This document shows positions 34,809 to 51,744 of a stretch of 64,000 nt of DNA, one piece after another. The stretch is from an uncultured Prochlorococcus sp. GTDB lineage: Bacteria > Cyanobacteriota > Cyanobacteriia > PCC-6307 > Cyanobiaceae. The DNA lies in the NCBI GenBank assembly GCA_902565305.1, contig CACFEJ010000005.1, forward strand, positions 1-64,000, written 5' to 3'. Under the pieces are notes generated by a model. The model was not told the DNA's origin, ran no database searches, and saw only the letters and a list, made by a program, of their open reading frames with translations. The first letter of the stretch is position 1. Each line of letters starts with the position of its first letter. A program made the position numbers and the translations under genes.

Positions 34809-35084
34809 TTATGAAGTTTGTTCTTTGATAATTATCATTAAATTACCATTTGCTTGATAATTTTTATTAGGAGGATTTATTTGATTTTTAATTAAAAAAA
34901 TAAAAGTATAAATCAACGGTAGAAGTAATGATGAAGCAGCAACTAAAGCGATTATCTGGTTTAACCTAATATATGGTTTTTTTACGAGATCCTCTCCGCA
35001 TAATCCACAAATCAAATTACCTTTTAAGGATTGTTTTTGAAATTGATATTTAGGATTGCAATATGGGCAATAATATCGAACCAT
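34809..35084 (-). CDS. Zinc-ribbon membrane protein
   Basis: A 91-residue protein with an N-terminal zinc ribbon (CPYC at residues 6-9 and CGLC at 31-34 or so) and one transmembrane helix near residues 48-68. The ribbon probably faces the cytosol. No function known. It has its own start just left of the 35.15-kb terminator. Confidence 0.7.
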   Translation of the reverse strand: MVRYYCPYCNPKYQFQKQSLKGNLICGLCGEDLVKKPYIRLNQIIALVAASSLLLPLIYTFIFLIKNQINPPNKNYQANGNLMIIIKEQTS

Positions 35085-35816: not shown

Positions 35817-36890
35817 TTACTTAAATCCCTTTGAAAAAAGGTTAGTACGAACTTTAAATTTCCATACATTTACAATACCTTTTGCATTAACTGCTGCAAG
35901 TGCACAATCATCAGGTCTCCATGATATTGCCCCTACCAAATCTCCGGCGAATGCAGCCCCAACTGGGTCTCCATTGCCGTCATTTTTTAAGAAACTTGCG
36001 ACAACAGAACCATCCCTAGATCCTGAGGCTACAAGCATACCTTTATTTGAAAAGGCTAAGCTCGAAATAGGTTCTGTATGGTGACATAGCTCTCCTGGCA
36101 TAGTCCCTTCTGGACCATTGCCAATAAAGCTCCATACTGTAATTCTTTCACTCCCGCTAGTCGCTAATAATTTTCCGCTGTCATCAAAAGAAAGGTGACT
36201 TGGTTTCCCAGGGTATCCAGTCATTTCAGCATCCATTCCTGTTGAACGTCTCCAAAAATGAACTGAATTGTCTTGACTCCCACAGGCGACTATATCTCCA
36301 TCAGGGCTTAATTCCATAGAAACCAATGATCCTTGCCACTCGAGTTTTTGATTCGTTTTGTTATTTACTATGTCAAAGAATGTCACTCTGCCATAGCATG
36401 CAGTTGCTAGCTCATTTTTATTTGACCATGTTATTGCACTTACTGTACTTGGATGATCTTCTGAGATCCATTTCTCTTCACCAATTTCATTAAAAACATA
36501 TACTTTTTTTGAGGAAGCTATCGCTAGAAATAAACCGTCATTAGACCACTTGAGATGTTCTACCCAACCCTTACCAAGATCAAGTGTTTTAATAACTTTA
36601 CCTTCGTGGCAATTACAAATTTGAACATTTCCATCCTGACCTGATGTTGCAAAAATTTCACCCTCTGGATGAATGGCCATTGCTAATAGACCACCGGAGT
36701 GTGTATTTTCTTTTTTCCAAATAATTTTTCCAGTATCTCCTTCGAACGAAAAAAGACCTCCTGCCACGTCGCCAACAATAAATTGTTTTCCTTTAAGAGC
36801 CCAGCCACATGCTATGGCGTAATCGTTAACTTCAGCAGTCCATCCTTCATGGAACATGCCTCTTGGGCTAAATGGTTCTATATCAGGCAT
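35817..36890 (-). CDS. WD40-repeat protein of the zinc locus
   Basis: A 357-residue beta-propeller of about seven WD40 repeats (for example HPEGEIFATSGQDGNVQIC and SNKGMLVASGSRDGSV). There is no signal peptide, so it is cytosolic. It overlaps the upstream cobW-type gene by 13 nt, so the two are translated from one mRNA, and a role in zinc handling or a scaffold for the CobW GTPase is inferred. No catalytic domain is attached. Confidence 0.88.
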   Translation of the reverse strand: MPDIEPFSPRGMFHEGWTAEVNDYAIACGWALKGKQFIVGDVAGGLFSFEGDTGKIIWKKENTHSGGLLAMAIHPEGEIFATSGQDGNVQICNCHEGKVIKTLDLGKGWVEHLKWSNDGLFLAIASSKKVYVFNEIGEEKWISEDHPSTVSAITWSNKNELATACYGRVTFFDIVNNKTNQKLEWQGSLVSMELSPDGDIVACGSQDNSVHFWRRSTGMDAEMTGYPGKPSHLSFDDSGKLLATSGSERITVWSFIGNGPEGTMPGELCHHTEPISSLAFSNKGMLVASGSRDGSVVASFLKNDGNGDPVGAAFAGDLVGAISWRPDDCALAAVNAKGIVNVWKFKVRTNLFSKGFK

Positions 36891-38227
36891 TTATCAAAGC
36901 CTTCTTGCATTTCTTTTTCATTTAAATTTCTACCTATAAAAACAAGTTGATTTCTACGAGGTTCGTTACCCCATTCTTTATCAGGTTGTGCAGTAAATAA
37001 CATGTGAACTCCCTGGAAAACTATTCTCCTTGGGTTACCTGAGTAACTTATGAAACCTTTAGTTCTGAATATATCAACTCCTTTTTCTGATAGAAGTCTT
37101 CCCATCCAAGTATTTAGTTTTTCTGGGTCAACATCTCCAAAACGCTCTATAGCAATTGAGCTTACTTCATCATCATGTTCGTGCTCTGCTTGCCAGAATC
37201 TTTCAGTATTAAAAGGAATCTCTTTATTTTCGTCACTTTTAATAACTTTCATATTGAATTCTTCAGCGGTGTGCTGTGTAAACAAACCTATTTTTGTTGG
37301 TTTTTCTATGTTCAGGATGAAGGATTTATTTCCTTTATCCTCCAATTTGAGATTTATATGTTCTCCATATTGGATGGTATTTCCAGGATCTAAACTATTA
37401 GCTTTTTCTGCATAAAGTCTCACGGAGGATTCAGCACCATCTTTAAGTTCCTCTTCACTCTCTCCTTGGTTAGAGAGGGCTACAAGAGACATTTCTGGAT
37501 CGGGTCCTTCTTCTAGCATTAATTCATATTTACCTGCATCAAGATCGTAAACACCTGTCCATTCAAAAGGATATTCTGGTTCAAGGAATGTTGGCCTGCG
37601 TTTAAGGATCTGATCAAGATCAAATGCACTTAGATTTAAGACTGTTTCAATTGGTACTTTGGCATTCTCGGCTCTAATAATTCGGGTCATTCGGTTCATA
37701 TCTCTCAATCTTGATTCAAGAGTATCTAGTGCATCATCAGAGACTAAATCAGTTTTATTAAGGACAAGAACATCTGCAAATGCCACTTGTTCTGAACTTT
37801 CATCACTCCTGCCTAACTGTTGATCAATGTGGGCAGCATCAACTAAAGTCACAATTCCATCAAGAGTGAATTCAGAACTAATCTCTTCATCCATGAAAAA
37901 TGTCTGAGCAACTGGGCCTGGATCTGCTAATCCTGTAGTTTCTACTAAAACATAGTCGAACTTATCTCTTCTTTTCATAAGGTTGCCTAGGACTCTTATT
38001 AAATCGCCGCGAACAGTACAACAAATGCACCCGTTTGACATCTCAAAAACTTCTTCATCGGCATTAATTACGAGCCCTTGATCTATACCCACTTCACCGT
38101 ATTCATTTTCAATTACTGCTATTCTTTTCCCGTGCTCTTCACTCAATATTCTATTAAGCAAAGTAGTCTTCCCTGAACCTAAAAATCCAGTGAGAATTGT
38201 AACGGGAACTTTATCTTGGATGCTCAT
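36878..38227 (-). CDS. CobW-family GTPase (zinc metallochaperone type) with inserted domain
   Basis: A G3E GTPase of 449 aa. The Walker A motif GFLGSGKTT is at residues 14-22, the metal-binding CICC motif (NGCICCTVRG) has Cys67, Cys69 and Cys70, the G3 region includes ETTGLADPGP, and NKTD is at 157-160. The CobW C-terminal domain occupies about residues 365-449. Between the GTPase and the C-terminal domain lies an extra segment of about 105 residues (221-325) running from FEWTG to FTQHTAEEF, then a HEHDD cluster at 349-353. This segment matches one in ZnuA. It probably loads Zn into client proteins under zinc limitation. A Zur-box candidate lies about 50 nt upstream. Confidence 0.92.
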   Translation of the reverse strand: MSIQDKVPVTILTGFLGSGKTTLLNRILSEEHGKRIAVIENEYGEVGIDQGLVINADEEVFEMSNGCICCTVRGDLIRVLGNLMKRRDKFDYVLVETTGLADPGPVAQTFFMDEEISSEFTLDGIVTLVDAAHIDQQLGRSDESSEQVAFADVLVLNKTDLVSDDALDTLESRLRDMNRMTRIIRAENAKVPIETVLNLSAFDLDQILKRRPTFLEPEYPFEWTGVYDLDAGKYELMLEEGPDPEMSLVALSNQGESEEELKDGAESSVRLYAEKANSLDPGNTIQYGEHINLKLEDKGNKSFILNIEKPTKIGLFTQHTAEEFNMKVIKSDENKEIPFNTERFWQAEHEHDDEVSSIAIERFGDVDPEKLNTWMGRLLSEKGVDIFRTKGFISYSGNPRRIVFQGVHMLFTAQPDKEWGNEPRRNQLVFIGRNLNEKEMQEGFDKCLI

Positions 38228-38277
38228 TTACTGATTTTTACTAAATAAACAATAGTTTAATAATAGTAATAATTAGA

Positions 38278-38296
38278 AATGAAAACCGTTTTTATT
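38278..38296. promoter_or_regulatory. Candidate Zur box upstream of the cobW gene
   Basis: The 19-bp sequence AATGAAAACCGTTTTTATT matches the znuA/znuC intergenic element at 39869-39887 at 15 of 19 positions. It lies 51 nt before the cobW start. Zur binding is inferred from this similarity and from the locus. Confidence 0.5.
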
Positions 38297-38304
38297 AGAA
38301 AAAT

Positions 38305-39846
38305 TTAATCTGAAAGTTTGTACCATTCAGACTCAAGATTGGAGCCAGATTCTTTATCGCAGCTTCCACCTAATGAATCAACAATTGTACAAGTGTTGTG
38401 AACGGCTACTGAAACCGTATTACCATCCATCATCAATCCATCAACGAATATTTGATTAGAAGCTAAAGGAACTGAACTTTGTCTACTTAAGTTCCTTAAT
38501 AACTTGGATGCTGGAATTTGTTCAGGAAATATTGCCTGAACATTCTCTTCATCTAACATTTTTAAAGTAGAACTTATATTGTCTGGCCTTAAGCTTGAGG
38601 AGTCTCCAAGAAAGTCAAGTAAACTAATGGTTTCAAAACCAAATGCATCCCCATAGTATTCAACTGCTTTGTGTTTAGAGACAATTACTCTGTTTTCCTC
38701 AGGAATAGAGCTTACTTGTTCGACGATCCAACTATCTAAGCCTTCTAAGAGAGAATCAACTTTTTCGAATCTTTCAGTAATTAGTTTTCTGTCACCTCTA
38801 TTAAAAACTGAAATATCTTGCTTTAAGCCTTTGCTTATAAGATCTCCCATTTTTATGATGTTATGTGGATCATGCCAAACATGAGGATCTAGTCCTCCAT
38901 GGTCATGATGATGATGCCCCTCTCCTTCGTCTGGTACTTGTGCTATGGGTTCTACATCACTATTTGAAACGTCTTTAAAAAAGTGTTGAGTTGCTTCAAA
39001 CTCAAAAGGCATGTGTTCAGTAAAAAATATATACTGACCATCTTCTTTGATATCCACGTTAAAAACAGTACTTTCTTTTCTTTGATCAAAGTTAAGAACA
39101 AAAGCTTTATTACTGGCTATCAAAGTACCATCATTTTTTCTGCTTATTGAGTCTTTAGATCCCAATAGTTCTTTAGCTAAATCTTCGGATCCTTCTATGT
39201 CATTAGATTTGAGAATCACCATCTTCATTGCAGGATCTGCATATTCTCCATCGACTTTTTCAAATGACCATTTGTAAGAACCCTTAGAAAGTTGGAATTT
39301 GCCTGCCCATTCGAAAGCACCCTCAGCGTGATCATCATGTCCACCATGATCTGAGTGATCGTCGTGACCTCCATGATCAGAATGGTCATCTACCTTAGCT
39401 GAATGTTGAGCATGATCGTCATGTCCATCATGGTCTGAGTGATCATCATGACCTCCATGATCAGAATGATCATCTACGTCTATTGCACTAACACCTACAA
39501 CAACAGTATTCTTTTTATTTTCCCAATTTCTCATACTTGGAGTCATTTCTTTACCAAGAGTAAATACTTTGTCTGCGCTATTAAGTAATTGAGCTTGCCT
39601 TGGATTGATCTTTAAGTCATGAACATCTTGTTTTCTATCTACTAAGCATGTAACTTCGTCAGATGGTAATGCAATTGATTTAACTAAATCACAAACTAGT
39701 GGTTCTACTGCTACGTATGATTTTCCTTTAGCCATAACATCCTGCCCAAAACCAGAAAATATAATCGTTCCAGCGATTAGGGAATTTTTAATAATTGACT
39801 TACTCGAACTTGTTCTATTTGTTAAAAGTCTTTTAAAAATTGACAT
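38305..39846 (-). CDS. znuA: Zinc ABC transporter substrate-binding protein with His-rich loops and an extra domain
   Basis: The periplasmic ZnuA, binding Zn for ZnuBC. The N-terminal secretion segment is hydrophobic at about residues 20-38. The first metal-site His is in QDVHDLKINP (His76), and a second group is in LDPHVWHDPHN (residues 319-329). At 513 aa it is far longer than the usual 300. The extra part is a His/Asp-rich loop at 125-173 (two copies of a 28-residue unit), then a domain of about 107 residues at 178-284 (FEWAG to FTEHMPFEF), then a HHHHDH cluster at 311-316. It is divergent from znuC with a Zur-box candidate in the gap. Confidence 0.93.
   Translation of the reverse strand: MSIFKRLLTNRTSSSKSIIKNSLIAGTIIFSGFGQDVMAKGKSYVAVEPLVCDLVKSIALPSDEVTCLVDRKQDVHDLKINPRQAQLLNSADKVFTLGKEMTPSMRNWENKKNTVVVGVSAIDVDDHSDHGGHDDHSDHDGHDDHAQHSAKVDDHSDHGGHDDHSDHGGHDDHAEGAFEWAGKFQLSKGSYKWSFEKVDGEYADPAMKMVILKSNDIEGSEDLAKELLGSKDSISRKNDGTLIASNKAFVLNFDQRKESTVFNVDIKEDGQYIFFTEHMPFEFEATQHFFKDVSNSDVEPIAQVPDEGEGHHHHDHGGLDPHVWHDPHNIIKMGDLISKGLKQDISVFNRGDRKLITERFEKVDSLLEGLDSWIVEQVSSIPEENRVIVSKHKAVEYYGDAFGFETISLLDFLGDSSSLRPDNISSTLKMLDEENVQAIFPEQIPASKLLRNLSRQSSVPLASNQIFVDGLMMDGNTVSVAVHNTCTIVDSLGGSCDKESGSNLESEWYKLSD
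39328..39477 (-). repeat. 84-bp direct repeat encoding His/Asp-rich loop
   Basis: Two adjacent copies of an 84-bp unit inside znuA encode VDDHSDHGGHDDHSDH-type segments starting at residues 124 and 152. Each copy is itself built from shorter DHSDHGGH/DDH units. Such repeats can change copy number by slippage and set the zinc-buffering capacity of the loop. Confidence 0.85.
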
Positions 39847-39868: not shown

Positions 39869-39887
39869 AATGATAATCATTTTCATT
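39869..39887. promoter_or_regulatory. Zur box between znuA and znuC
   Basis: AATGATAATCATTTTCATT is an imperfect palindrome of the Fur/Zur operator type (TGATAAT core). It is located 23 nt before the znuA start and 96 nt before the divergent znuC start, so one repressor dimer could control both directions. A zur gene lies 1 kb away. Confidence 0.75.
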
Positions 39888-39982: not shown

Positions 39983-40753
39983 ATGGCTACTTTAGTCGCT
40001 GAAAATTTAACCTTTGCATACACAAAAAAAAGTAAGCCAGCTTTGAATAAGGTATCTGTTGAGATTAAACCTGGAACTCTAACAGCGTTAGTTGGCCCAA
40101 ACGGCGCTGGTAAATCAACTCTTTTGAGAATATTGCAAGGACAAAATACTCCAGATAAAGGCGAAATAAAAATTGACGGTGAAAATTTATATAGATCTAG
40201 AGCTCTTGTGGCACTTATGCCTCAAAGAAGTTCTATGAATTGGAAGTTCCCCATCACAGTTGAAAAATTGGTATCTCTTGGTCAAATAAAGTATTCAAAA
40301 TCAAGAAGTAATAACCCCTTTCAAATTAAGACTCTTCTAGCATATCCTAATTCTTGGATTAATAGATGTTGTGAATTAGAGGCGACAATGCAAAGAGTAG
40401 GCATTGCAAATTTGGCTAATAGAAGACTCGATTCTCTTTCAGGAGGACAGCAGCAAAGAGCTCTATTAGCAAAAACTCTTATGTCCCCTGCAAAAATATT
40501 TCTTTTAGATGAACCTTGTGCAGCTTTGGACCCACCTGCAAAGGAAGATTTTCTAAAAATTGTTCGTCAACTTGCGGATACGGGACTTTCTTTGCTCGTA
40601 AGTAGCCATGATTGGGGCGAGTCTTTAAATAACTATGATCAAGTAATTGTTCTTGATAAAAGTGTTTTGGCAGTTGGTAGTCCTGACCAAATAAAAGATA
40701 AATTAGAGGCTATAAATATTAGCTCTATAAACGAAAATAATTTCTGTGATTAG
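39983..40753 (+). CDS. znuC: Zinc ABC transporter ATP-binding protein
   Basis: The ATPase of the ZnuABC importer, 256 aa. It has Walker A GPNGAGKST near residue 38, the Q-loop MPQRS, the ABC signature LSGGQQQRALLAKTL, and Walker B KIFLLDEPCAALD. It works with ZnuB (41219) and ZnuA (38305). It converges on zur, with 13 nt between them. Confidence 0.95.
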   Translation: MATLVAENLTFAYTKKSKPALNKVSVEIKPGTLTALVGPNGAGKSTLLRILQGQNTPDKGEIKIDGENLYRSRALVALMPQRSSMNWKFPITVEKLVSLGQIKYSKSRSNNPFQIKTLLAYPNSWINRCCELEATMQRVGIANLANRRLDSLSGGQQQRALLAKTLMSPAKIFLLDEPCAALDPPAKEDFLKIVRQLADTGLSLLVSSHDWGESLNNYDQVIVLDKSVLAVGSPDQIKDKLEAINISSINENNFCD

Positions 40754-40766: not shown

Positions 40767-41201
40767 TTAATTCTGAGCTTGATAACAGTTTTGGCAAAGC
40801 CCGAAATACTCGAGGGTATGAAACAACAATTGGAATTTCTTTGGATTTGTTTTGGGTGTATGAATATCTTTTACCGGGCATCCTTCCATTTTTGATGTCT
40901 CACCACATTGAACACAGGTCAAATGATGAATATCTCTATCTACGGGAGTGTAAAGAACCTCTCCTGTTGGGAGATGTCTAGAACGTATTAAACCATGCTT
41001 TATCAGAACTTGAAGATTCCTGTAAACAGTCGTCAGTCCCATAGCCTTTCCTCTTTCTATCAATTGTCTATGCAACTCTTGACCAGTCAATTCATCATCA
41101 CATTTATTAAGTTCTTCAAGAAGTTGTTCTTGTCTTTTGGTAATGTCAGACTTAGTTACCATTGTTTCCGAAATCATTTTTTGTCCCGTATTTTTGATCA
41201 T
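40767..41201 (-). CDS. zur: Fur-family transcriptional repressor, probably Zur
   Basis: A Fur-family metalloregulator with a winged-helix N-terminal domain (recognition region AMGLTTVYRNLQVL) and a C-terminal dimer domain containing HHLTCVQCGE and LCQNCY, the two Cys pairs of the structural zinc site. Its position inside the znuABC cluster makes Zur the best call. The frame opens at 41201 (144 aa), but the Fur-like sequence starts about residue 17; ATG at 41177 (MISETMVTKSD) is a better start and leaves 41 bp to znuB. Confidence 0.92.
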   Translation of the reverse strand: MIKNTGQKMISETMVTKSDITKRQEQLLEELNKCDDELTGQELHRQLIERGKAMGLTTVYRNLQVLIKHGLIRSRHLPTGEVLYTPVDRDIHHLTCVQCGETSKMEGCPVKDIHTPKTNPKKFQLLFHTLEYFGLCQNCYQAQN

Positions 41202-41218: not shown

Positions 41219-42004
41219 ATGTCTTTTATTAATAACAACTGGTGGTTGGTTCCATTAATAATAACTATATTCTCCGGGATCTTATGCCCAGCTATGGGAA
41301 CTGTATTAATCACTCATAAGAGATTATTACAAGTTAATTTAATCTCTCATTGTGTGTTGCCTGGACTTGCTCTCGCATTAGCGCTCGGAATTCATCCCTC
41401 AATTGGTGGCGTTATTAGTGGTCTTCTGGGCTCAGTAATTGCGGAAAGTTTAACTAATAGAAAAAGTGAAAATTATGAAGCAGTTATGAATACTATACTT
41501 GCTGGAATGCTTGGGTTTGGAGTCCTTATAATCCCTCTACTCGGGATAAGGATTGATTTGGAGGCAGTATTATTTGGCGATTTATTGACAGCAAATTTTG
41601 GAGATTTACTTAGAACAATAATAGCTTTTTTAGTATTTATACTTTTAATGACTTTTGGATATGAAAAGGTTGTTTATGTTGGATTAGATCCAGAAGGTGC
41701 ATCCGCGAGTGGTATAAACGTTTCTTTATTAAATCTTGCTTTGAGTTTTACAACGGCATTAGTAATTGTTAGTTCAATGTCAGCAGTGGGAGTAATTCTT
41801 GTAATTGCTCTTCTTTCTACGCCAACTTTGTTAGGGCTAAATAAGGCTCATAGTTTAAAAATTGCAATGATGAGGTCTTCATTTTTTGGATTATGTATCT
41901 CACTTCTTGGATTTATTCTCTCTATAGTCTTTAATCTTTCGCCTGGACCTGCAATTAGTGTTATTTGTGTCGCATCTCTTTTGATTCCTAAGCTTCGCAA
42001 ATAA
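41219..42004 (+). CDS. znuB: Zinc ABC transporter permease
   Basis: A metal permease of the ABC-3 family, 261 aa with about eight hydrophobic helices. It forms the channel for ZnuA-delivered zinc. It is divergent from zur, with a very short shared upstream region. The stop is directly followed by the stop of a convergent 48-residue gene. Confidence 0.93.
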   Translation: MSFINNNWWLVPLIITIFSGILCPAMGTVLITHKRLLQVNLISHCVLPGLALALALGIHPSIGGVISGLLGSVIAESLTNRKSENYEAVMNTILAGMLGFGVLIIPLLGIRIDLEAVLFGDLLTANFGDLLRTIIAFLVFILLMTFGYEKVVYVGLDPEGASASGINVSLLNLALSFTTALVIVSSMSAVGVILVIALLSTPTLLGLNKAHSLKIAMMRSSFFGLCISLLGFILSIVFNLSPGPAISVICVASLLIPKLRK

Positions 42005-42151
42005 TTAAATCTTAAATGTCCAATCAGAATTTAATGCTTGTGCTTCTGGATTGTTTTTTAAAGCTACTTCCATAGCTTCTTTTTTATTATTAGCTATAAC
42101 AACTTCATAAAATTCCTTTTCATTTTTTTTGAGACTTACTTTGAAACGCAT
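42005..42151 (-). CDS. Small conserved hypothetical protein
   Basis: A 48-residue ORF (ATG at 42151) with a beta-alpha-beta-like pattern: KVSLKKNEKEFYEVVIANN, then an acidic/basic helix NKKEAMEVALKNNPEAQAL and an ending NSDWTFKI. This looks like a real small folded domain, similar in style to cyanobacterial proteins of unknown function. It abuts the znuB stop with no gap. Confidence 0.65.
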   Translation of the reverse strand: MRFKVSLKKNEKEFYEVVIANNKKEAMEVALKNNPEAQALNSDWTFKI

Positions 42152-42234
42152 AAAAATTATTTAATTAATCAAAAGTTAACCACTAAGCAACTAGATTTAA
42201 ATACTTTTAAAAGTTAATTGATGAAATAGAAACT

Positions 42235-42483
42235 TTAGTTATTTTGAAGTTTTTCTACTACAGATTCTTTCTCAATTTTCGCTACATCCTGTAATCCATT
42301 AGCATCAAACCAAGGAGCGTTTTCCCAATTAAATCCTTCACCAAAAGTATTATCGGGAGCAGCTACGTACCAGTGACATGACGAATCGGGAACATCTACA
42401 GCACATTTTGACCAGTCAGCTTCCCACTGTGGAACTTGTACCCACATTACAGATGCTAATAAAAAAGAAAAAATAAAATTCAT
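42235..42483 (-). CDS. Small secreted protein, hypothetical
   Basis: An 82-residue protein with a short N-terminal hydrophobic signal (residues 2-14), then a Trp-rich, two-Cys mature part (WSKCAVDVPDSSCHWYVAAP). The two Cys could pair in the periplasm. Not recognised. Confidence 0.65.
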   Translation of the reverse strand: MNFIFSFLLASVMWVQVPQWEADWSKCAVDVPDSSCHWYVAAPDNTFGEGFNWENAPWFDANGLQDVAKIEKESVVEKLQNN

Positions 42484-42492
42484 AATTATCGG

Positions 42493-42636
42493 TTAGCAAA
42501 ATTTTGAAAGATTTTTTTCACATTCTTTCTTTCTTCTCTTCCAGGAATTCTCAAGTATTTGATATTTATGCTTATTTTTGAATTGACTTAAATGAATATT
42601 ATTCTGATTAAGAACTGTAGTATTTTTGATTTTCAT
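42493..42636 (-). CDS. Small basic protein, hypothetical
   Basis: A 47-residue ORF with ATG at 42636; the protein is polar and very basic in its second half (SWKRRKKECEKNLSKFC). No family recognised. The frame is clean and it fits head-to-tail with its neighbours, but coding is only moderately supported. Confidence 0.45.
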   Translation of the reverse strand: MKIKNTTVLNQNNIHLSQFKNKHKYQILENSWKRRKKECEKNLSKFC

Positions 42637-42713
42637 GACTCAAGCTGTCTATGTACGACATATTTAAGACACTTTATAGATTTTTTGAAGTGAATTTATA
42701 CTTAATTTTTGTT

Positions 42714-42848
42714 TTACTGGTGTGTAGGTAAGTATTTTTCGGGATTATTTTCAATATAAGTAAGTGAATATTTGACAACACCCACTATTACTGAAAAAAG
42801 AGCAAATGCCGAAATAATAAAAATGATTTTTTTGTAAATGATTTTCAT
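42714..42848 (-). CDS. Small single-helix membrane protein
   Basis: A 44-residue ORF with ATG at 42848: a basic start MKIIYKKI, one hydrophobic helix (about residues 8-26) and a short polar tail ENNPEKYLPTHQ. Not recognised; one of many tiny membrane proteins in this region. Confidence 0.5.
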   Translation of the reverse strand: MKIIYKKIIFIISAFALFSVIVGVVKYSLTYIENNPEKYLPTHQ

Positions 42849-42934
42849 AAATTTTTTATGTTTTTGATTATTTTTATCATCAACGTCCAATTTTTTCTGA
42901 AAGATTTAAATAATTAGTAATTTATACTGTAGCC

Positions 42935-43045
42935 TCTTAAATTACCTACGGAGTAGATTAAATACATCAGAAACTCCTCACACACTTTTTTCTGATAACT
43001 TTAAAAGTACTCGGCCGCAAAGTTTGAGTACTTTTTGTATTTTTT
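42935..43045 (+). ncRNA. Yfr2/Yfr10-like small RNA
   Basis: A hairpin with stem ATCAGAAA (42966-42973) and TTTCTGAT (42989-42996) presents the core CTCCTCACACAC (42974-42985) in its loop. It is followed by a terminator with stem AAAAGTACTC (43003-43012) and GAGTACTTTT (43026-43035) and a T-run. A TATACT -10 element is at 42923-42928. Shared core, loop presentation and terminator fit the cyanobacterial Yfr2-type family; the exact member name is uncertain. The 5' end is estimated. Confidence 0.8.
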
Positions 43046-43077
43046 TGAGATGTGACAGTTAAAATAGAGGTCTATTA

Positions 43078-43211
43078 AGCATTACAAATTTTGAATTTAA
43101 GTGTGATATTTAATTTGTGTGTAGGAGGAATTGATTTATTTCAGTGGAAACAAGGAAACACTTGATATAAATCAATTTTAAAAGATCTCTCTTTGAGGGG
43201 TCTTTTTTTTT
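43078..43211 (+). ncRNA. Candidate small RNA / dwarf mRNA next to the Yfr2-like RNA
   Basis: Bounded by a TAAAAT -10 candidate at about 43066-43071 and a terminator (AGATCTC...GAGGGGTCT, 43183-43203, then T8). It contains GTGTGTAGGAG at 43117-43127, which can pair with the Yfr core CTCCTCACACAC with one bulge. It overlaps a perfect AGGAGG (43123-43128) followed by a 16-codon frame starting TTG at 43131. Ends are estimated; both RNA and peptide readings are open. Confidence 0.4.
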
Positions 43212-43341
43212 GGGGATTATTAGAAATAAATATTAAATTCTGAATATAAAAACAAAAATGCTTTCTTCCAAAATGATTAGGTCGTCATTACAAATTAGTA
43301 ATTTAATTCGTTAGATTATGATTCGTTAAATTCTTCTGTTA

Positions 43342-43725
43342 ATGAAAATACTTTTTTTAACAATTTTAATTTGTTCAAGCTTTTTATTCCCTTCTTCATC
43401 ATTTGCCTCACATGTAGAACTAAAACCTTGTGTAGAGATTGCACATTGTGTACGAGAAGAATGGGAGGTTAACAATATTGAGAAACCTTTTGAAGAGATT
43501 AAAACATTTATCGAAAACACTCCAAGAACTGAGATTGTAGAAATTGATGGCGATTATCTTCATGCTGAGGCTACCAGTAAATGGATGAAGTATGTAGACG
43601 ACTTAGAGGTATCCTTTTTACCTGAATCAAAAATTTTATCTATAAGATCAGAATCAAGAGTTGGAGAAAGTGATTTGGGAGTGAATCAAAAAAGAGTTGA
43701 TTTATTAAAATCGAAAATGTTTTAA
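43342..43725 (+). CDS. DUF1499 secreted protein
   Basis: A 127-residue protein with a signal peptide (cleavage near SSFA-SH), then a DUF1499 domain with the typical DGDYLHAEATSKWMKYVDD and a later IRSESRVGESDLGVNQKR block. Two Cys near the N-terminus (KPCVEIAHC) could form a disulfide. The family function is unknown; members occur in cyanobacteria and plastids. Confidence 0.88.
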   Translation: MKILFLTILICSSFLFPSSSFASHVELKPCVEIAHCVREEWEVNNIEKPFEEIKTFIENTPRTEIVEIDGDYLHAEATSKWMKYVDDLEVSFLPESKILSIRSESRVGESDLGVNQKRVDLLKSKMF

Positions 43726-43863
43726 GGTAAAAAGGAAAAAAATAATTTGTTTTTATTGTTTTTTGTATAACTTTTCCATATTTAAAAAAAATTAGCAGAT
43801 AAAAAAGTGATAATTGTCATCATGCCTTGATATTGGCAAATTTATTAGATTTTCTCTGAAAAG

Positions 43864-44148
43864 ATGATCATAAATTTTATATATTTATTGTTATCTAGTT
43901 TTATTTTTTTATGGTTTTATATAAACATTAAAAAAAATGGACTTAAATGGATAATCAAAGGTCTTTTTCAAATGGGAATATTGGTATTATTCATTGGAGG
44001 TTTTTTCAAAATATTTTTCACCTTACCCCCTAGTTTATTTATAAAAATAGTTTTTCTTTTTATTTATACATGGTGCACTGTTGGAATAAATGTAAATTTC
44101 ATGATCCCTTTGATTAGTTTGATTGACCAAAAAATAGTGAAAAAATAA
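43864..44148 (+). CDS. Three-helix membrane protein, hypothetical
   Basis: A 94-residue very hydrophobic protein with about three transmembrane helices and a short basic loop (NIKKNGLKWIIKG). Unknown family. Confidence 0.6.
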   Translation: MIINFIYLLLSSFIFLWFYINIKKNGLKWIIKGLFQMGILVLFIGGFFKIFFTLPPSLFIKIVFLFIYTWCTVGINVNFMIPLISLIDQKIVKK

Positions 44149-44223
44149 AACTAAAATATTCCTTAATTTTCAGTACAAAAATAAATCTATTTCCTTAATC
44201 TGCAATATTAAAATTTATAAGAT

Positions 44224-44334
44224 TTATTTTTTTCCTTTTGAAAGTCTTTTTCTTGTATACCTAGTCTTTAATGCCAAGTCTGTCATTATGTATATTCCAA
44301 ATAAAAGAATGACTATTCCAATAAAGTATTTCAT
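44224..44334 (-). CDS. Tiny membrane protein
   Basis: A 36-residue ORF, ATG at 44334: one N-terminal helix (MKYFIGIVILLFGIYIM) followed by a basic tail (KTRYTRKRLSKGKK). The positive-inside pattern suggests N-out orientation. Typical of picocyanobacterial micro-membrane proteins; function unknown. Confidence 0.55.
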   Translation of the reverse strand: MKYFIGIVILLFGIYIMTDLALKTRYTRKRLSKGKK

Positions 44335-44364
44335 TATTTTTTATGTCATTACTATGTTAGAGAT

Positions 44365-44772
44365 TTATTCATTATGCCAACTAATTTTAATATCTATTTC
44401 TTGAGATAAATTTCTTGTAACTGGACATTCTTTGGAAGCTTTTTTCAAAAAATCAATAGTTTCATAAGAAGTGATCTCTGGTATAAAAATATCAATTATT
44501 AGTTCTTTTATTTTCCTCTCGCTATTTTGTGTCATTACTTTTTCAATATTTAAATATATACCTTTCAAATCAAATCCTTTCGATTTAGCTTTGATTGCCA
44601 TAATGGTTAGCAGGCAAGTACCTAGAGATGTTGCTAATAAATCAGTTGGGGAAAAACTTTCACCTTTACCGCAGTGATCTAAAGGTGCATCAGTTCTAAT
44701 AAGACTTCCAGATTGTATGTGAATAGCCTCACAGTTTAAATTTCCTAAATAAGAACATTTAACTTTAGTCAT
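44365..44772 (-). CDS. OsmC/Ohr-family peroxidase
   Basis: A 135-residue OsmC-family protein. It has the two expected redox Cys, one in ATSLGTCLLTIMAI near residue 54 and one in SKECPVTRNL near residue 116, and a conserved Glu-like acid near GKGESFSPTD. It probably reduces organic hydroperoxides in the cytosol with a thiol donor. Confidence 0.9.
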   Translation of the reverse strand: MTKVKCSYLGNLNCEAIHIQSGSLIRTDAPLDHCGKGESFSPTDLLATSLGTCLLTIMAIKAKSKGFDLKGIYLNIEKVMTQNSERKIKELIIDIFIPEITSYETIDFLKKASKECPVTRNLSQEIDIKISWHNE

Positions 44773-44899
44773 TTTAAAAAATTAAATTAGGAAAATATTA
44801 TTAGTAAAAAATTTTGGAACATAACAAGATTATTGATGAGAAATTTTTTATTTGCATATTAGTGGAGTATTAAGGAAATTCATCATTCAAGTTTTGAAA

Positions 44900-45142
44900 T
44901 CAGTTTTTATATCCATATTCCTCTAAGCAATACTCAATTAATTCAATTGATTTATTAAGAGTTCTTTTATTTTTATTTTCTAGATCGAAGCATTCATTTA
45001 AAACACGTATAGATTCATTTAAGAATTTTTCTTCTTTAATTTTTAAATCTTTAACTTGATTTATATAAATTTATTTTTTAATCCCAATAAGGGAAAATAT
45101 GATTATTGATATTGTGAAAATTGCTATTTTGAATTTATTCAT
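44900..45142 (-). pseudogene. Small membrane/coiled-coil protein gene broken by an in-frame TAA
   Basis: One continuous frame of 81 codons is interrupted only by TAA at 45071-45073. The first part (23 aa from ATG at 45142) is an N-terminal helix MNKFKIAIFTISIIIFSLIG. The second (56 aa) is a charged helical region (LKIKEEKFLNESIRVLNE) ending YCLEEYGYKN and has no ATG, GTG or TTG of its own. Together they look like a normal anchored coiled-coil protein with a recent nonsense change. A sequencing error or stop readthrough are alternatives. Confidence 0.55.
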
Positions 45143-45206
45143 ACAATTAGTTATTACAAATATTTTAATTTATTTAATATCTAAAAACTTTACATAGCTT
45201 ATAGAA

Positions 45207-45308
45207 CTAAGTAATTACATATGTAGCTGCTGAAATTGCTATAGCAGTAATTGAAATGAAGATGTATGGAACAACCTTTAAAGGTATATATAGATTATTT
45301 TTAGACAT
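45207..45308 (-). CDS. Tiny membrane protein
   Basis: A 33-residue ORF, ATG at 45308: a short polar start (MSKNNLYIPLK) followed by one hydrophobic helix to the C-terminus. Not recognised. Weak to moderate support from pattern only. Confidence 0.45.
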   Translation of the reverse strand: MSKNNLYIPLKVVPYIFISITAIAISAATYVIT

Positions 45309-45423
45309 AACTAGAACCTTTATAAAAATTTTTACATTCTCTTTAAAATTTATAAGTCTTCAAATATACAAATTAATTTTCTTTGCAAAAATTCAATTCT
45401 TTTAAAAGATTAAAAATTTATAT

Positions 45424-45630
45424 TCATTGAATTTTCATTAAATAAAGTAATTCTAAATCCTGTCTTGAGTCTGATATTTTTCTTTTTAAGAAGATTAATT
45501 CTTCTTGGCTCATTTTTGATTCTTTTATCATCAATTCTGCTTGTTCAATAGCATGTTCTATATTTCTAATTTTGATTTCTCTTATTGAGGGATCATCTTT
45601 ACATGCTTTTTTAGTATTCGCATCTAACAT
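45424..45630 (-). CDS. Small helical protein, hypothetical
   Basis: A 68-residue soluble protein, predicted almost entirely helical with a heptad-like pattern (IREIKIRNIEHAIEQAELMI, then EELIFLKRKI), so it is probably a small coiled coil or helical hairpin. No family assigned. Confidence 0.6.
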   Translation of the reverse strand: MLDANTKKACKDDPSIREIKIRNIEHAIEQAELMIKESKMSQEELIFLKRKISDSRQDLELLYLMKIQ

Positions 45631-45721
45631 ATGTACAAAAAAATTACTTTGAATTTAATCTAAATTAAAACTTCATTACGTTACAACCGCAAATTTAATT
45701 AAAATAAATTATTATCTATTC

Positions 45722-45775
45722 AAGAACTTTAACCTTAGCTTACCCTCTCTGCAATTGATCGAGTGGGTTTTTTTT
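45722..45775 (+). ncRNA. Candidate small RNA ending in a strong terminator
   Basis: A terminator hairpin, ACCCTCTC (45742-45749) with GAGTGGGT (45761-45768) and one mismatch, runs directly into eight T. No plus-strand gene ends upstream for over 1.5 kb, so it must close a short transcript. A TATTAT-like -10 is near 45709. The gene at 45810 begins only 35 nt later with its own TAATAT box, so an attenuated leader is also possible. Confidence 0.4.
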
Positions 45776-45809
45776 ATGGTGTAATATACTCCTAGCATTT
45801 AATACTAAT

Positions 45810-46184
45810 TTGGAAGATTCAAAACTTAATCCTGAGGAAAATAATTCAATCGAATCGTCCCCCAATTTGGATGAAGACAATAAAGATTTTAATGAGGGGA
45901 CTAAAAAAGAAGAAAATGTTAAAGCATTTACAGAATTTCTAGAGAAAGCAAGTAGTCAAGATTCTTCAGAAGAAAAAGTAAAACTTGATTCTGAGCAACA
46001 AAAACCAAAAATTGACAAATCACTTTTTAAAAGATTTCTTAACAATGGATTTGATGGAATTTCAACTAATCCAAACTATAAAATGTTGGCATTATTAATA
46101 ATCCTTTTAATTAATTTGTCTCTATTTTTTGTAATTGGCAATATGGGTAAAGCGTTTTTAAGAAATGCAGGAATTATGGGTTAG
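45810..46184 (+). CDS. Acidic protein with C-terminal membrane anchor
   Basis: A 124-residue protein with a TTG start. An acidic, low-complexity N-terminal half (EENNSIESSPNLDEDN) is followed by a C-terminal helix (residues 93-112). The C-tail orientation suggests a soluble domain on the cytosolic side. The next tiny gene has a similar C-terminal anchor. Unknown function. Confidence 0.6.
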   Translation: MEDSKLNPEENNSIESSPNLDEDNKDFNEGTKKEENVKAFTEFLEKASSQDSSEEKVKLDSEQQKPKIDKSLFKRFLNNGFDGISTNPNYKMLALLIILLINLSLFFVIGNMGKAFLRNAGIMG

Positions 46185-46280
46185 AAATTATTTATTTCTT
46201 TTTGGATAATCATCTTTACAATTTTGATTCTTCAAATGAAACTGTGATATTTTCTTGTCAAATTAATATTTAAATAAAAT

Positions 46281-46442
46281 TTGGATAAAAAAGAGCCAGA
46301 AAATCCAGTCGTTTATCTTTCTAATTTAGTCAAGAAATTAGATGTAAAAAACAGAAATGGTTTAGTAGCTTTAGCAATAGTAAACCTTTTAGTAATTCTT
46401 TTATTTAAATTTTATTTGAAAGGATCTGGATTATTATCTTGA
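46281..46442 (+). CDS. Tiny membrane protein
   Basis: A 53-residue ORF with a TTG start at 46281. A polar N-terminus (MDKKEPENPVVYLSNLVKKL) is followed by one helix near residues 29-45. The arrangement resembles the C-terminal end of the gene before it. Not recognised. Confidence 0.55.
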   Translation: MDKKEPENPVVYLSNLVKKLDVKNRNGLVALAIVNLLVILLFKFYLKGSGLLS

Positions 46443-46460
46443 AATTGCCTGCTGGTATTA

Positions 46461-46775
46461 TTATTCAGCATTCTCAAATTGCTTTGCTAATCTAAATGCC
46501 TTCTTAATTATTAGAAAGCCGCCATATGCTCCTGCCAGTAAAGGTAATACTATTAAAGGGTTAGGGGAATAATCTGAATAATTTTTCACACCCTCAACAT
46601 ATTCATAACTTGAACATTTAAGAAAGATAAAGCTAAAAAATGTGATACTCCAACCAATGATTGATAAAAAGCCACCTTTTTTATCTCCTTCGTAGAATCT
46701 GTCTAGACCTAAACCCCAGCCTCCTAATAGAAATATTCCTCTAACAACTGAATTTTTTTCTTGTTTTCTAAGCAT
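46461..46775 (-). CDS. TM2-domain protein
   Basis: A 104-residue protein with the TM2 signature GGWGLGLDRFYEGDKKGG near residues 18-35 and a second helix, then a third hydrophobic segment near residue 76. TM2 proteins are small two-helix membrane proteins of unknown function. A perfect 15-bp palindrome lies 11 nt upstream of the start. Confidence 0.8.
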   Translation of the reverse strand: MLRKQEKNSVVRGIFLLGGWGLGLDRFYEGDKKGGFLSIIGWSITFFSFIFLKCSSYEYVEGVKNYSDYSPNPLIVLPLLAGAYGGFLIIKKAFRLAKQFENAE

Positions 46776-46785
46776 AATTAAAAAA

Positions 46786-46800
46786 TGTTCATTATGAACA
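46786..46800. promoter_or_regulatory. Perfect 15-bp palindrome upstream of the TM2 gene
   Basis: TGTTCATTATGAACA is a perfect inverted repeat with a single central base. Position just upstream of the TM2-gene start fits an operator. It is not a terminator (no T-run) and does not match the cyanobacterial LexA box that I know. Confidence 0.35.
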
Positions 46801-46906
46801 TAACCTATTTGTATTTAAGATGTGAGATGTTTTTATAAATTAATCTTTAAAATAAATTTTTAATGGATTTAATCTATAAATTGTAAAAATATTTTCAGTG
46901 TTTTAA

Positions 46907-47677
46907 TTAATCACTAGAGATTGAATTTGAATTCAACAAGGAAATTGAAGGCCTTATATAAATAAAAATAGACCCATACATATCCTGCATAATTCTCATT
47001 TCATCGTCTAAATATACAATTGAAACCTGGCAATTTGGCGATTCTTTATTCCAAGGTAACTTATTCCATACCTCTTTAACTGGATACCATCTATCCATAA
47101 GTAGTTTGCTAAATAATGGAATCTTATTAAGTCCATCAACTTTGGAAACTTTTGTCTTTTGTAAGTTCATATCAAGTAAATTATTTCTTAAAACCAAATC
47201 ACTTGCTAGGGTTATTACTCTTCCACCAAAAGTAGGCAATAGTTTGAACCAACCTAAGATAGGAATTGTTGTGAGCCCAAATATTGTAGTGTCGAAAGTA
47301 GATATAAATTCTTTTTTGTCAAAATCAATCTTTTGAGCAATTCTGCCAATAGTTGATATGCCAAAGGATCCTACTTGCAATTGATGTAGTTTAAAAAAAA
47401 GATTACTTTTAAATTCATCATTTAATGCCTTTTCAATAGCAAGGAAGAAAGGAGAACTTCGAAATAATTCAACATTAGAAAAAATCAATTCCCACTCTCC
47501 GGACAATAATTTTTCTGATATCTCAAAACTAAAGTCTTTAAGAGCATCAATCAATTCATCCATTTCATTATCTTTTTCCTCATACATAGGAGAAATTAAT
47601 TTATTTAATCTTTGCCCTCTATCTGTAACAGCAGCTATTTTATATATATTTGACTTTATCTCTCCAATTGCTTTCAT
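46907..47677 (-). CDS. PAP/fibrillin-family protein
   Basis: A 256-residue plastid-lipid-associated (fibrillin) protein. These bind lipids or carotenoids on thylakoids and plastoglobule-like bodies. It has the N-terminal LSGEWELIFSN motif near residue 58 and the C-terminal YLDDEMRIMQDMYGSIFIY block typical of the family. A second, shorter member is at 50114. Confidence 0.88.
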   Translation of the reverse strand: MKAIGEIKSNIYKIAAVTDRGQRLNKLISPMYEEKDNEMDELIDALKDFSFEISEKLLSGEWELIFSNVELFRSSPFFLAIEKALNDEFKSNLFFKLHQLQVGSFGISTIGRIAQKIDFDKKEFISTFDTTIFGLTTIPILGWFKLLPTFGGRVITLASDLVLRNNLLDMNLQKTKVSKVDGLNKIPLFSKLLMDRWYPVKEVWNKLPWNKESPNCQVSIVYLDDEMRIMQDMYGSIFIYIRPSISLLNSNSISSD

Positions 47678-47762
47678 AACTCCAATACAAGAAATACTAA
47701 TTAATCTTAGGAATTTAATTTGATGTTGATGGCAATTTTAATAATGCTGGTAATAAAATCAA

Positions 47763-47945
47763 TTAATATTCTCCCCACCTTTTACCAATATCAAAACCCC
47801 ATTCAGTGGTTAATTTAATTACTTCATCATGATTCTTGCATTTTGAAAGGGATAACTTTTTACTAGGATTATTTTTTATTAGCTCAGCAATTTGCTTCAG
47901 TTGCTCAATTTTTTTTAGAAAATTAGTTAGATCTTTATCTGACAT
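47763..47945 (-). CDS. Nif11-domain protein
   Basis: A 60-residue Nif11-family protein: an N-terminal helix with LKKIEQLKQIAELIKN, then the C-terminal half with VIKLTTEWGFDIGKRWGEY. In other Prochlorococcus, Nif11 domains form leaders of lanthipeptide precursors. Here there is no double-Gly cleavage site and no Cys/Ser/Thr-rich core, so it is a stand-alone Nif11 protein rather than a precursor. Confidence 0.82.
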   Translation of the reverse strand: MSDKDLTNFLKKIEQLKQIAELIKNNPSKKLSLSKCKNHDEVIKLTTEWGFDIGKRWGEY

Positions 47946-47949
47946 TTAT

Positions 47950-48057
47950 CTAGGAAGTAAATTTTTGATCATAAGTAAATATGTAATAAAGAACCCAGCC
48001 AACACCAATAATAAGAATTGCAATCATTATATTTACTGACCAAACTACTTCTATCAT
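47950..48057 (-). CDS. Tiny membrane protein
   Basis: A 35-residue ORF, ATG at 48057: a single helix through most of its length (MIEVVWSVNIMIAILIIGVG), then a short tail TYDQKFTS. Its stop is 4 nt from the Nif11 start, so the two are probably cotranscribed. Unknown function. Confidence 0.55.
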   Translation of the reverse strand: MIEVVWSVNIMIAILIIGVGWVLYYIFTYDQKFTS

Positions 48058-48182
48058 GTAATTTTTTTATATATTTTTAATATATCCAAAATTTAAATTA
48101 AATTAACCGTTAATAATTTAAATCTAGAACAATACACTACTACTACTAGGTATATAGAATAGTCATAAATAGTTTAAAAATT

Positions 48183-48362
48183 ATGGGAGAAGCTAAGAGA
48201 AGGGAAGAGTTAGGCTTACCACCAAGAGAAAAGAAAAAGGAAAAGCAAACATCGAAAAATCAACTAAACAAAATTTTAAATAAATATCCTTATTTACCTT
48301 TCATTTTAGGTTTTTCATTACTAGCAATATTAATTATCGATTTACTTAATTACTACAAATAG
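48183..48362 (+). CDS. DUF2839 membrane protein
   Basis: A 59-residue protein with the MGEAKRREELGLPPR start that identifies DUF2839, a cyanobacterial family. A very basic linker and one C-terminal helix (about residues 38-55) follow. Function unknown. Confidence 0.82.
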   Translation: MGEAKRREELGLPPREKKKEKQTSKNQLNKILNKYPYLPFILGFSLLAILIIDLLNYYK

Positions 48363-48447
48363 ATATATAAAAAGGGGATAGTTTTAGCAGAAGAGAAGAT
48401 TATCTTCGCAATTGCGAAATTATTTTTCCATAATAAAAATAAAACTC

Positions 48448-48633
48448 ATGAAACCGATTAACACCTCATGCTCCTTAATTTTAGGGGTACTAACTTTGTT
48501 TTCAATATCTAATGCAAATGCAGGTGGCTGCAGTTCTCATAGTGAGAAGATGGCAGAAATTGAATGCTTGTCTGATGATAAAAAATGTATAGAAGCGAAA
48601 GAAAAAGAATCACTATACAAAGTTGAGGCCTAA
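48448..48633 (+). CDS. Small secreted Cys/His protein
   Basis: A 61-residue protein with a signal peptide (cleavage after NANA) and a mature part GGCSSHSEKMAEIECLSDDKKC. The ATG at 48448 is chosen over an upstream in-frame TTG (48412) because it starts a normal signal peptide. Pattern GGC-x2-H and a later Cys pair match the 34563 protein. The next gene starts right after its stop. Confidence 0.7.
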   Translation: MKPINTSCSLILGVLTLFSISNANAGGCSSHSEKMAEIECLSDDKKCIEAKEKESLYKVEA

Positions 48634-48933
48634 ATGTTTGATAATCTTGGAACTGCTCTAGTACAGGCATTAGGCTTCTTTGCTGTTTTTGGTTTTTTTG
48701 TATATCAAACTTTATTCGCAGATAGCAAACCCAAAAATTCAAACTCAAATCCTAAAAAAACAAAGATTTCCGACAAAAAAGAATCAATTAAAAAAGAACC
48801 TAAAAAAGGCTTATTTAACAGAAAATCTAAACCTGTTGAAGAGAATTTAACAGTCAAAAAGAGATTATTTGGGAGAAAAAAAGAAGTTAGTAAAGAAGAG
48901 ATTAAACCTAAGAAAAAAGGTTGGTTTAAATAG
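48634..48933 (+). CDS. Membrane-anchored Lys-rich protein
   Basis: A 99-residue protein with an N-terminal helix (about residues 8-30) and a very basic tail with three copies of a K(K/R)xLFxRK-like motif (KGLFNRKSK, KRLFGRKKE, KGWFK). It starts immediately after the preceding stop. It may bind nucleic acid or anionic lipid at the membrane; that is inference. Confidence 0.6.
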   Translation: MFDNLGTALVQALGFFAVFGFFVYQTLFADSKPKNSNSNPKKTKISDKKESIKKEPKKGLFNRKSKPVEENLTVKKRLFGRKKEVSKEEIKPKKKGWFK

Positions 48934-49019
48934 GTAAAGGTATTAAAACTCTTTTTTGATATCTTTTATACAAAAACTTTTTTTAGTAACTTTATAATTT
49001 ATAGTATATAAAATTCAAA

Positions 49020-49154
49020 ATGAACCATAGAGAAATCACAAAAAAATATAGCGATTTACTTAACAAGGCTGAGTTTGCTACTGGACGTAAGGAAGTTGTT
49101 GGTCTTTTAAAAAAAGCTGCCAAATTGAAATCTCAGATTGAAATCAATTATTAA
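49020..49154 (+). CDS. Small basic helical protein
   Basis: A 44-residue ORF, ATG at 49020: MNHREITKKYSDLLNKAE, then RKEVVGLLKKAAKLKSQIEINY. Predicted amphipathic helices. The codon pattern is coding-like. Not recognised, though small conserved proteins with this look are common in the genus. Confidence 0.55.
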   Translation: MNHREITKKYSDLLNKAEFATGRKEVVGLLKKAAKLKSQIEINY

Positions 49155-49239
49155 ATCTTAAAATTAGTTTAATTCTAAATGTAAAAAATTTTTTTAAATA
49201 AGTTTTTACATGAGATAATCTGCATAGATTATTTTTCTT

Positions 49240-49419
49240 ATGAATAAAAAAGGTTATACGACTGAAAGCGGTGGTAGACAAAATGGTTTTGCAATTGAAC
49301 CAGAAATTAACCCTATATCAGAAGGCGAATCAAAGAAATCCATATTTTTATTTATTGGAATATTATTACCTTTTCTAATAGGAGGTTTTTATTATTTAAG
49401 GACTCTGAATATATTCTGA
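49240..49419 (+). CDS. Tiny membrane protein
   Basis: A 59-residue ORF, ATG at 49240. The polar N-terminus contains ESGGRQNGFAIEPE, reminiscent of HLIP N-termini, and is followed by one C-terminal helix (about residues 34-52). It lacks the HLIP ExxNGRxAM chlorophyll-binding motif, so it is not a high-light-inducible protein. Confidence 0.55.
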   Translation: MNKKGYTTESGGRQNGFAIEPEINPISEGESKKSIFLFIGILLPFLIGGFYYLRTLNIF

Positions 49420-49423
49420 TATT

Positions 49424-49603
49424 TTATAAGCCATTTTTAGCAATATATTCTTCTGAGCTAACTATATCTTGCATTAGGCTCTCTGATGAAGGATTAAATC
49501 CATTTTGCTCTAAAAAAGATTTAACCTTTTCAAATTTTTGCTGAATTTTTTTTGTATATGGAGTTGTCATCAAATAATCATCTTTTTCTGTTGAATAGTT
49601 CAT
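49424..49603 (-). CDS. Small soluble protein, hypothetical
   Basis: A 59-residue ORF, ATG at 49603: MNYSTEKDDYLMTTPYTKKI, then a helical region KFEKVKSFLEQNGF and ESLMQDIVSSEEYI. Looks like a small helical domain. It is convergent with the 49240 gene, with 4 nt between stops. Unknown. Confidence 0.55.
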   Translation of the reverse strand: MNYSTEKDDYLMTTPYTKKIQQKFEKVKSFLEQNGFNPSSESLMQDIVSSEEYIAKNGL

Positions 49604-49750
49604 TTGATTAACGGATTACTTTTACAATTAAATTTTGCAAAATATGCTATTGCTAGTGAAGTTATAAATATTACATAAATAATTAAATAGTAATAAATAC
49701 TTATAATTACTTATAAATTGTTTGTGTGAGATCGCTATTAGTTGATTTTT

Positions 49751-50038: not shown

Positions 50039-50113
50039 ATCAACATATTCTGGGTAGAATATAGCACATGGAGGTAAGTATTTATCCTTATCTATATACT
50101 CAGCGGTTATTAA

Positions 50114-50656: not shown

Positions 50657-50665
50657 AAATAGAAA

Positions 50666-51027: not shown

Positions 51028-51090
51028 GAAATATATCCAAAAAGATATAAAAATATTGAGAAAATAGTAAATTTTCGTTGAATTAATAAT

Positions 51091-51216: not shown

Positions 51217-51334
51217 GAATGATTTTTTAACATAAATTACAGCATTTTTTGAAATGTTTTATCTATGGTAATGATTTTTCATTTATCACGATAACGAGCT
51301 TCAATTATTAAGCTAATAATATTATTTAAATTAT

Positions 51335-51739: not shown

Positions 51740-51744
51740 ACTAT

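Follow-up and report, generated by a model that had tools for sequence, protein, structure and literature searches.

A beta-rich domain of about 105–115 residues, seemingly undescribed as far as the open-access literature goes (our search of it found no description), is inserted in the products of two adjacent genes on the stretch of DNA analysed here, the first 64,000 nucleotides of contig CACFEJ010000005.1 from an uncultured Prochlorococcus sp. (hereafter the window). Its two hosts are a CobW/COG0523 GTPase and ZnuA, the binding protein of a zinc ABC transporter. Residues 218–328 of CobW (37244..37576, reverse strand) and 175–286 of ZnuA (38989..39324, reverse strand), both delimited by profile matches and BLASTP, are homologous as judged by sequence comparison, and we propose, with a probability of roughly one in two, that they represent an accessory domain that would act in the capture of a scarce transition metal and its transfer to the host's main site.

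The two inserts share 28% identity over 113 columns in BLASTP (expectation value, E, 1e-5), and their Smith–Waterman score of 83 was equalled by none of 20,000 shuffles, for which the maximum was 62. That residues 221–325 of CobW and 178–284 of ZnuA align over their full length, as the original prediction had it, was borne out, with the opening FEW motif starting at 221 and 178 and the last motif ending at 324 and 283. Profiles (hidden Markov models) built from either segment also find the other: the CobW-domain profile matched all 12 true ZnuA domains (E 7.6e-13 to 3e-11) and the ZnuA-domain profile all 17 full CobW domains (E 2.2e-12 to 1.5e-8), the best values thus lying near 1e-12 in small sets of 14 and 18 sequences; two WD40 pieces (L019 and L020) that had wrongly entered the ZnuA profile were counted as non-members for the CobW profile. 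Used as sole query in whole-genome searches, the window CobW domain matched the ZnuA copy of 11 out of 61 genomes from the window's family (E 1.5e-6 to 2e-4) but missed that of its own genome at E 0.001. A joint profile run against the source assembly (1.16 Mb, 70% complete), which also holds one ZnuA and one CobW paralogue, matched both inserts and only these two, neither paralogue giving a match.

Both segments interrupt otherwise recognizable proteins. The cobW gene (36878..38227, reverse strand; 449 aa) encodes a COG0523 GTPase (PF02492, residues 8–184, E 1.9e-61) with the Walker A motif GFLGSGKTT, the metal motif CxCC in the form CICC at residue 67 and a CobW_C domain (PF07683, residues 355–448, E 9e-25), and the insert lies between the GTPase domain and CobW_C. 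In the product of znuA (38305..39846, reverse strand; 513 aa) it lies inside the His-rich loop, where it is flanked by the two stretches that match PF01297 (E 3e-42); the family profile of cluster A-I binding proteins likewise matches in two stretches (profile positions 6–105 and 56–260). Zinc as the substrate of this ZnuA is suggested by its His loop and by the FUR-family gene nearby. Judged by eye, CobW has no signal peptide and ZnuA has an apparent one, and the initial proposal of a domain shared by an adjacent cytosolic GTPase and exported binder, within one znuABC/FUR-family locus, was confirmed.

Six columns are invariant in all of 16 diverse rows, namely E (in FEW), G, D (in DP) and the H, E and F of HxxxEF. 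Four of the six are of metal-ligand types, compared with 21% in the overall composition (p about 0.02), and the invariant E, D, H and E persist in rows outside picocyanobacterial CobW at 25–38% identity to the window CobW copy. His, Glu and Asp, which had been put forward as candidate metal ligands, are supported in that role by their invariance, but the Met of DPxM, also put forward, is not conserved across the family. A His cluster follows the domain in both window proteins, as had been noted: HHHHDH in ZnuA (38899..38916, reverse strand; residues 311–316) and, in CobW, HEHDD at residue 349, which adjoins the start of CobW_C at 355 and has HxH counterparts in the other CobW carriers checked. 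The window ZnuA has in addition a His/Asp-repeat arm directly before the domain (39325..39474, reverse strand), with 10 His in 35 residues and a length that differs among loci. His counts for 15 hosts, taken before the domain over 35 residues, gave 5–10 before and 4–6 after in ZnuA hosts, 3 before and 4–7 after in stand-alone hosts, and 5 before and 3 after in a membrane protein of Alicyclobacillus; in six CobW hosts there were 0–1 before, and the domain was followed by an HxH motif, which in five took the form HxHD.

The search for further carriers that had been suggested showed the domain to be wider than the CobW and ZnuA pair, and to occur in other bacteria and in haloarchaea. A contig scan built on picocyanobacterial rows yielded 482 confirmed stretches, the best 80 of which were used as loci (77 from Prochlorococcus, three from uncultured Synechococcaceae; domain up to 98% identical). 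The domain is present in 85 of 300 genomes of the window's family, most open frames among the matches listed being CobW-sized (about 445–478 aa) or ZnuA-sized (about 450–545 aa), and in 31 of 386 genomes of a phylum-wide sample: 27 in the window's family and four in another cyanobacterial order, in which the domain was present in four of the ten genomes searched. Outside Cyanobacteriota, carriers come from plasmid records, chromosomes of other phyla being covered by the contig scan alone. By tblastn, 11 of 72,556 plasmid records carry the domain (E limit 0.01, except 1 for one query); a second query recovered the same 11, and two further queries 10 and 8 of them. No phage carrier was found in a phage collection (one query), and none was confirmed in three viral-contig scans.

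Plasmid-borne CobW hosts occur in Pantoea agglomerans, Paraburkholderia and, with a broken CobW, Pantoea soli, and haloarchaeal ZnuA hosts in Halorientalis, Haloarcula (two records) and Halorubrum, three of these four being identified with Pfam and the fourth through its similarity to the window ZnuA. Stand-alone haloarchaeal proteins, with His tails and what looks by eye like a lipobox, were found in Halomontanus, Halosolutus and Natrinema, and the Natrinema gene (L162, 3875–4426) lies directly 3′ of the urease accessory gene ureF, after urease genes, which suggests nickel. The Alicyclobacillus carrier is a polytopic-looking membrane protein encoded near a metal-sensitive regulator and cation transporters; its host halves match no Pfam family above the cut-off (best Mntp, E 0.0045), and from its sequence we take it, as a guess, to be a nickel/cobalt transporter. 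Wherever the host part of a carrier could be identified, it proved to be that of a ZnuA or a COG0523 GTPase. The Haloarcula halophila plasmid record also holds, close to its end (L184, about 6288–6628), a second, interrupted domain copy, following a repeated block of GTP-binding, Fe-S and cobalt-factor genes.

Copy number varies in ZnuA. The gene could be seen in 78 of the 80 loci, with one domain in 55, two in 10 and none in 13. Among 75 ZnuA genes with both loop ends recognised (54 one-copy, 10 two-copy, 11 with none), the median number of His in the arm leading up to the first domain was 15 for one copy and 0 for two, compared with 16 in the whole loop of forms without the domain, and all 10 two-copy forms had no His in this arm, as if the second domain could stand in for it. 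In a tree of the ZnuA core made by a quick method (82 rows, loop removed; L081 and L063 dropped, and L143 excluded for containing a run of N), the copy states need three changes, with one two-copy clade of 11 rows (100 in the Shimodaira–Hasegawa-like approximate likelihood ratio test), one domain-less clade of 13 and one lone loss, L116. The ZnuA of L116, within the one-copy clade, has kept its His repeats, and its missing domain may reflect a recent loss or an assembly matter. Two tandem copies with no His arm before the first are found in L144 and in 10 loci such as L132 and L105, and an 873-aa ZnuA frame in L143 (4727–7345) has two identical domain regions on either side of the run of N, which suggests an assembly artefact.

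In a tree of the domain itself (22 rows), which has long branches over 115 columns and an unsure deeper order, the CobW copies fall on one side of a branch that is not fully supported (93/89), separate from the ZnuA, stand-alone and membrane copies. Forcing all nine picocyanobacterial copies together was rejected (log-likelihood 15.8 lower; approximately unbiased, AU, test p 0.003), and the ZnuA domain is therefore not simply a copy of its neighbour's; local shuffling, in which it would have been taken from the adjacent cobW, was ruled out on this ground. The seven ZnuA copies as one clade were neither shown nor rejected (p 0.248). As to the idea of one module used in two compartments, the homology is upheld, although the two copies come from separate old lineages.

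AlphaFold2 models were obtained for the CobW domain from a mixed alignment of 53 rows (predicted local distance difference test, pLDDT, 63; predicted template modelling score, pTM, 0.50) and for the ZnuA domain from 35 ZnuA rows (pLDDT 74, pTM 0.63). The former has predicted strands at 7–14, 17–23 and 32–38, a helix at 43–57 and strands at 75–79, 87–92, 96–102 and 111–114; the latter has strands at 7–14, 17–24 and 34–41, a helix at 45–57 and then strands at 62–65, 69–71, 75–80, 87–94, 98–104 and 111–115. In the structural comparison that the original prediction had called for, the main strands and the helix thus come in the same order, the ZnuA model having two extra short strands; the two models are not fully independent, because the first alignment contained ZnuA rows. 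Look-alikes of both models are all beta sandwiches (GOLD, jelly-roll capsid proteins, Eph ligand-binding domains and carbohydrate-binding modules), with Z under 6. The p24 GOLD match is weak (best Foldseek E 6e-3, template modelling score 0.38–0.48), as are the VIA Z scores of 4.5–5.7 for SEC14-like and p24 GOLD entries. We describe the domain as beta-rich in its predicted structure, with a weak resemblance to beta sandwiches, and claim no fold family for it.

Searches of Pfam and NCBIfam with 16 diverse members, and of PHROGs and PDB sequences, gave no credible match to the domain. Single-member matches were no better than E 0.014 in Pfam and E 0.19 among PDB sequences, and the 16 members likewise gave no credible match in Pfam or NCBIfam to the ZinT/AdcA C-terminal family or another known zinc-domain family. 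NCBIfam NF005913, matched by two of the 16 members (best E 2.6e-4, at 19.7 bits where the cut-off is 382), was read as a chance hit.

Metal capture and relay is the reading that we consider likeliest, because identifiable hosts are COG0523 GTPases or ZnuA and the others are His-rich stand-alone proteins and a membrane protein; because His-rich flanks accompany the domain in non-CobW carriers, and HxH follows it in CobW carriers; because four of six invariant columns are of metal-ligand types; because two-copy ZnuA forms are devoid of His in the arm that precedes their first domain; and because the surrounding locus, of znuABC and a FUR-family gene, has a conserved Zur-like box. The domain and the neighbouring His-rich stretches would together capture the metal ion, zinc here and perhaps nickel or cobalt elsewhere; the ZnuA copy would hand it, outside the inner membrane, to the ZnuA cleft, and the CobW copy, inside the cell, to the CxCC site or to a CobW client. 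Several observations weigh against this. The domain is absent from 13 of 78 ZnuA genes and is therefore dispensable there; the trade between a second copy and the His arm fits one event, and therefore counts as one observation, not ten; CobW hosts have next to no His before the domain; the Halomontanus and Halosolutus stand-alone genes and the Paraburkholderia gene have no annotated metal neighbours; both models are of modest confidence; and the weak GOLD resemblance of the models would fit docking as well, GOLD domains being interaction domains. More tentatively still, the domain might be a mobile metal-capture module of bacteria and archaea that replaces His arms, serves both sides of the membrane and several metals (Zn, Ni, Co), and, in Prochlorococcus ZnuA, is tuned through the number of copies (0, 1 or 2).

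Protein docking, the next reading in order of probability although we lean away from it, would have the domain bind a partner (for CobW a WD40 propeller, for ZnuA some other component) or a further copy of itself, leaving the His stretches alone to handle metal. It draws on the gene that follows cobW in the window, which encodes a WD40-repeat (beta-propeller) protein (35817..36890, reverse strand; Pfam WD40) with no obvious signal peptide by eye. In all 80 loci, which had themselves been collected by way of the domain, a WD40 gene follows the domain-bearing CobW gene, and the pair recurs in L145 and L146 from the window's family, in L139, L141 and L142 from another order (L140 ends too early to show this neighbour) and in Pantoea and Paraburkholderia; the two genes overlap at their ends by 13 bases in the window and in Pantoea agglomerans and by 4 in Paraburkholderia. 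Moreover, some WD40 match is present in 21 of 61 family genomes; it is strong (E below 1e-100) in 17, precisely those genomes that have the CobW domain, and reaches E 2.5e-30 or weaker in the remaining four. The presence of GOLD domains among the best structural look-alikes points the same way, but these matches are weak, and the flanks fetched for the haloarchaeal ZnuA genes (four), the stand-alone genes (three) and the Alicyclobacillus gene showed no WD40 homologue at E 1e-10. That the domain is a structural spacer holding His-rich stretches off the host protein, with its invariant residues needed for folding only, seems improbable: it does sit in loops and linkers, and ZnuA has lost or duplicated it while keeping the rest of the protein, but E, D, H and E invariant at such low identity across bacteria and archaea would be unusual for a spacer, and the CobW copy is present in every locus collected (the loci having been collected through that copy). 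Chance or convergent low-complexity similarity, which the 28% identity of the single pair and the missed ZnuA copy of the window's own genome might suggest, is scarcely credible given the shuffles, the profile cross-matches and the agreement among the four queries of the plasmid records.

Between 35.8 and 42.0 kb the genes run in the order WD40, cobW and znuA on the reverse strand, znuC (39983..40753, forward strand; Pfam ABC_tran), a FUR-family regulator gene (40767..41201, reverse strand; Pfam FUR), probably zur to judge from its locus, and znuB, for the ABC-3 permease (41219..42004, forward strand; Pfam ABC-3). The original prediction placed a Zur-box candidate before each host gene. For znuA this holds: the palindrome TGATAATCATTTTCA at 39871–39885, between the divergent znuA and znuC, is a candidate Zur site and the sole match without mismatch in the window to a box pattern, itself modelled on this site after it had been seen. 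Among 68 related loci, 64 have the Zur-like box before znuA; in another six containing znuA together with znuC, it is present in L144 and L152 and absent from L143, L148, L151 and L153. For cobW it is not supported by a motif match, since the pattern has no hit within three mismatches between 37251 and 39210; the element before this gene (38277..38292, reverse strand) is therefore backed by conservation only (73 strict and five looser cases in 78 loci). In Synechococcus WH8102, the cluster synw0968–0973 has divergent znuC and znuA with one predicted Zur box between them and is Zur-repressed (PMC9337993; here and below, statements on cited papers refer to excerpts of them), and by analogy with this layout the window locus would be zinc-responsive. 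Near the locus, 34809–35084 encodes a small protein of 91 aa, zinc-ribbon-like in its two CxxC pairs, that also has a hydrophobic stretch, and open reading frames of at least 150 aa are sparse over 42005–57800 relative to the rest of the window, possibly a genomic island.

Among known systems, AdcA is a ZnuA-type binding protein fused at its C terminus to a lipocalin-like ZinT domain. The window ZnuA resembles it as a zinc binder of an ABC importer with an extra domain, zinc-capturing in AdcA and proposed to be so here, but the present domain lies inside the His-rich loop, is also found in GTPases and matches no ZinT family in Pfam. GOLD domains (p24, SEC14L4, supernatant protein factor), among the best look-alikes of both models albeit with weak scores, are to our knowledge eukaryotic trafficking domains with no metal role. 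The His-rich loop of ZnuA is a flexible His stretch, whereas here a predicted folded domain lies within that stretch or, in two-copy forms, replaces part of it. The protein position is that of the His-rich loop of Synechocystis ZnuA, which is said to raise zinc near the cleft (PMC8786288). In the same source, the ZnuA cluster CK_2462 is nearly absent from Prochlorococcus and CK_1600 is annotated as Zn or Mn; the window ZnuA could not be assigned to either.

The prokaryotic members of COG0523 subfamily 5 have WD40 and znuABC genes clustered with them (Haas et al. 2009, PMC2770081), an adjacency seen in the window and most loci, with znuABC not found in Pantoea and Paraburkholderia; the window CobW is likened to this subfamily by its gene neighbours alone, and the excerpted text mentions no inserted domain. 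A precedent for a propeller partner is the zinc chaperone AztD, a beta-propeller zinc protein with ZnuA-type, FUR-family and CobW genes in its neighbourhoods; AztD is periplasmic or on the cell surface and gives zinc to AztC, unlike the WD40 protein here to judge by its lack of an obvious signal peptide, and is likened to it by description only (PMC6689063). The diatom proteins ZCRP-A and ZCRP-B similarly pair a COG0523 protein with a binding-type protein that is exported, and both are more abundant when Zn or Co is low; ZCRP-B is compared with the Nik nickel system, and the excerpts mention no domain shared by the two (PMC9010474). ZepA, again likened by description only, is a Zur-controlled, exported cyanobacterial zinc protein that is partly a beta sandwich, and differs in having a PEP-CTERM tail (PMC10957091).

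How marine picocyanobacteria grow at ultra-low zinc is an open question (PMC9337993), and a domain common to the binding protein of an importer and a putative metallochaperone may provide a handle on it. The natural ZnuA forms with no, one or two copies would allow metal capture to be compared directly, and the domain supplies a label for several hypothetical haloarchaeal proteins and for the CobW–WD40 gene pair.

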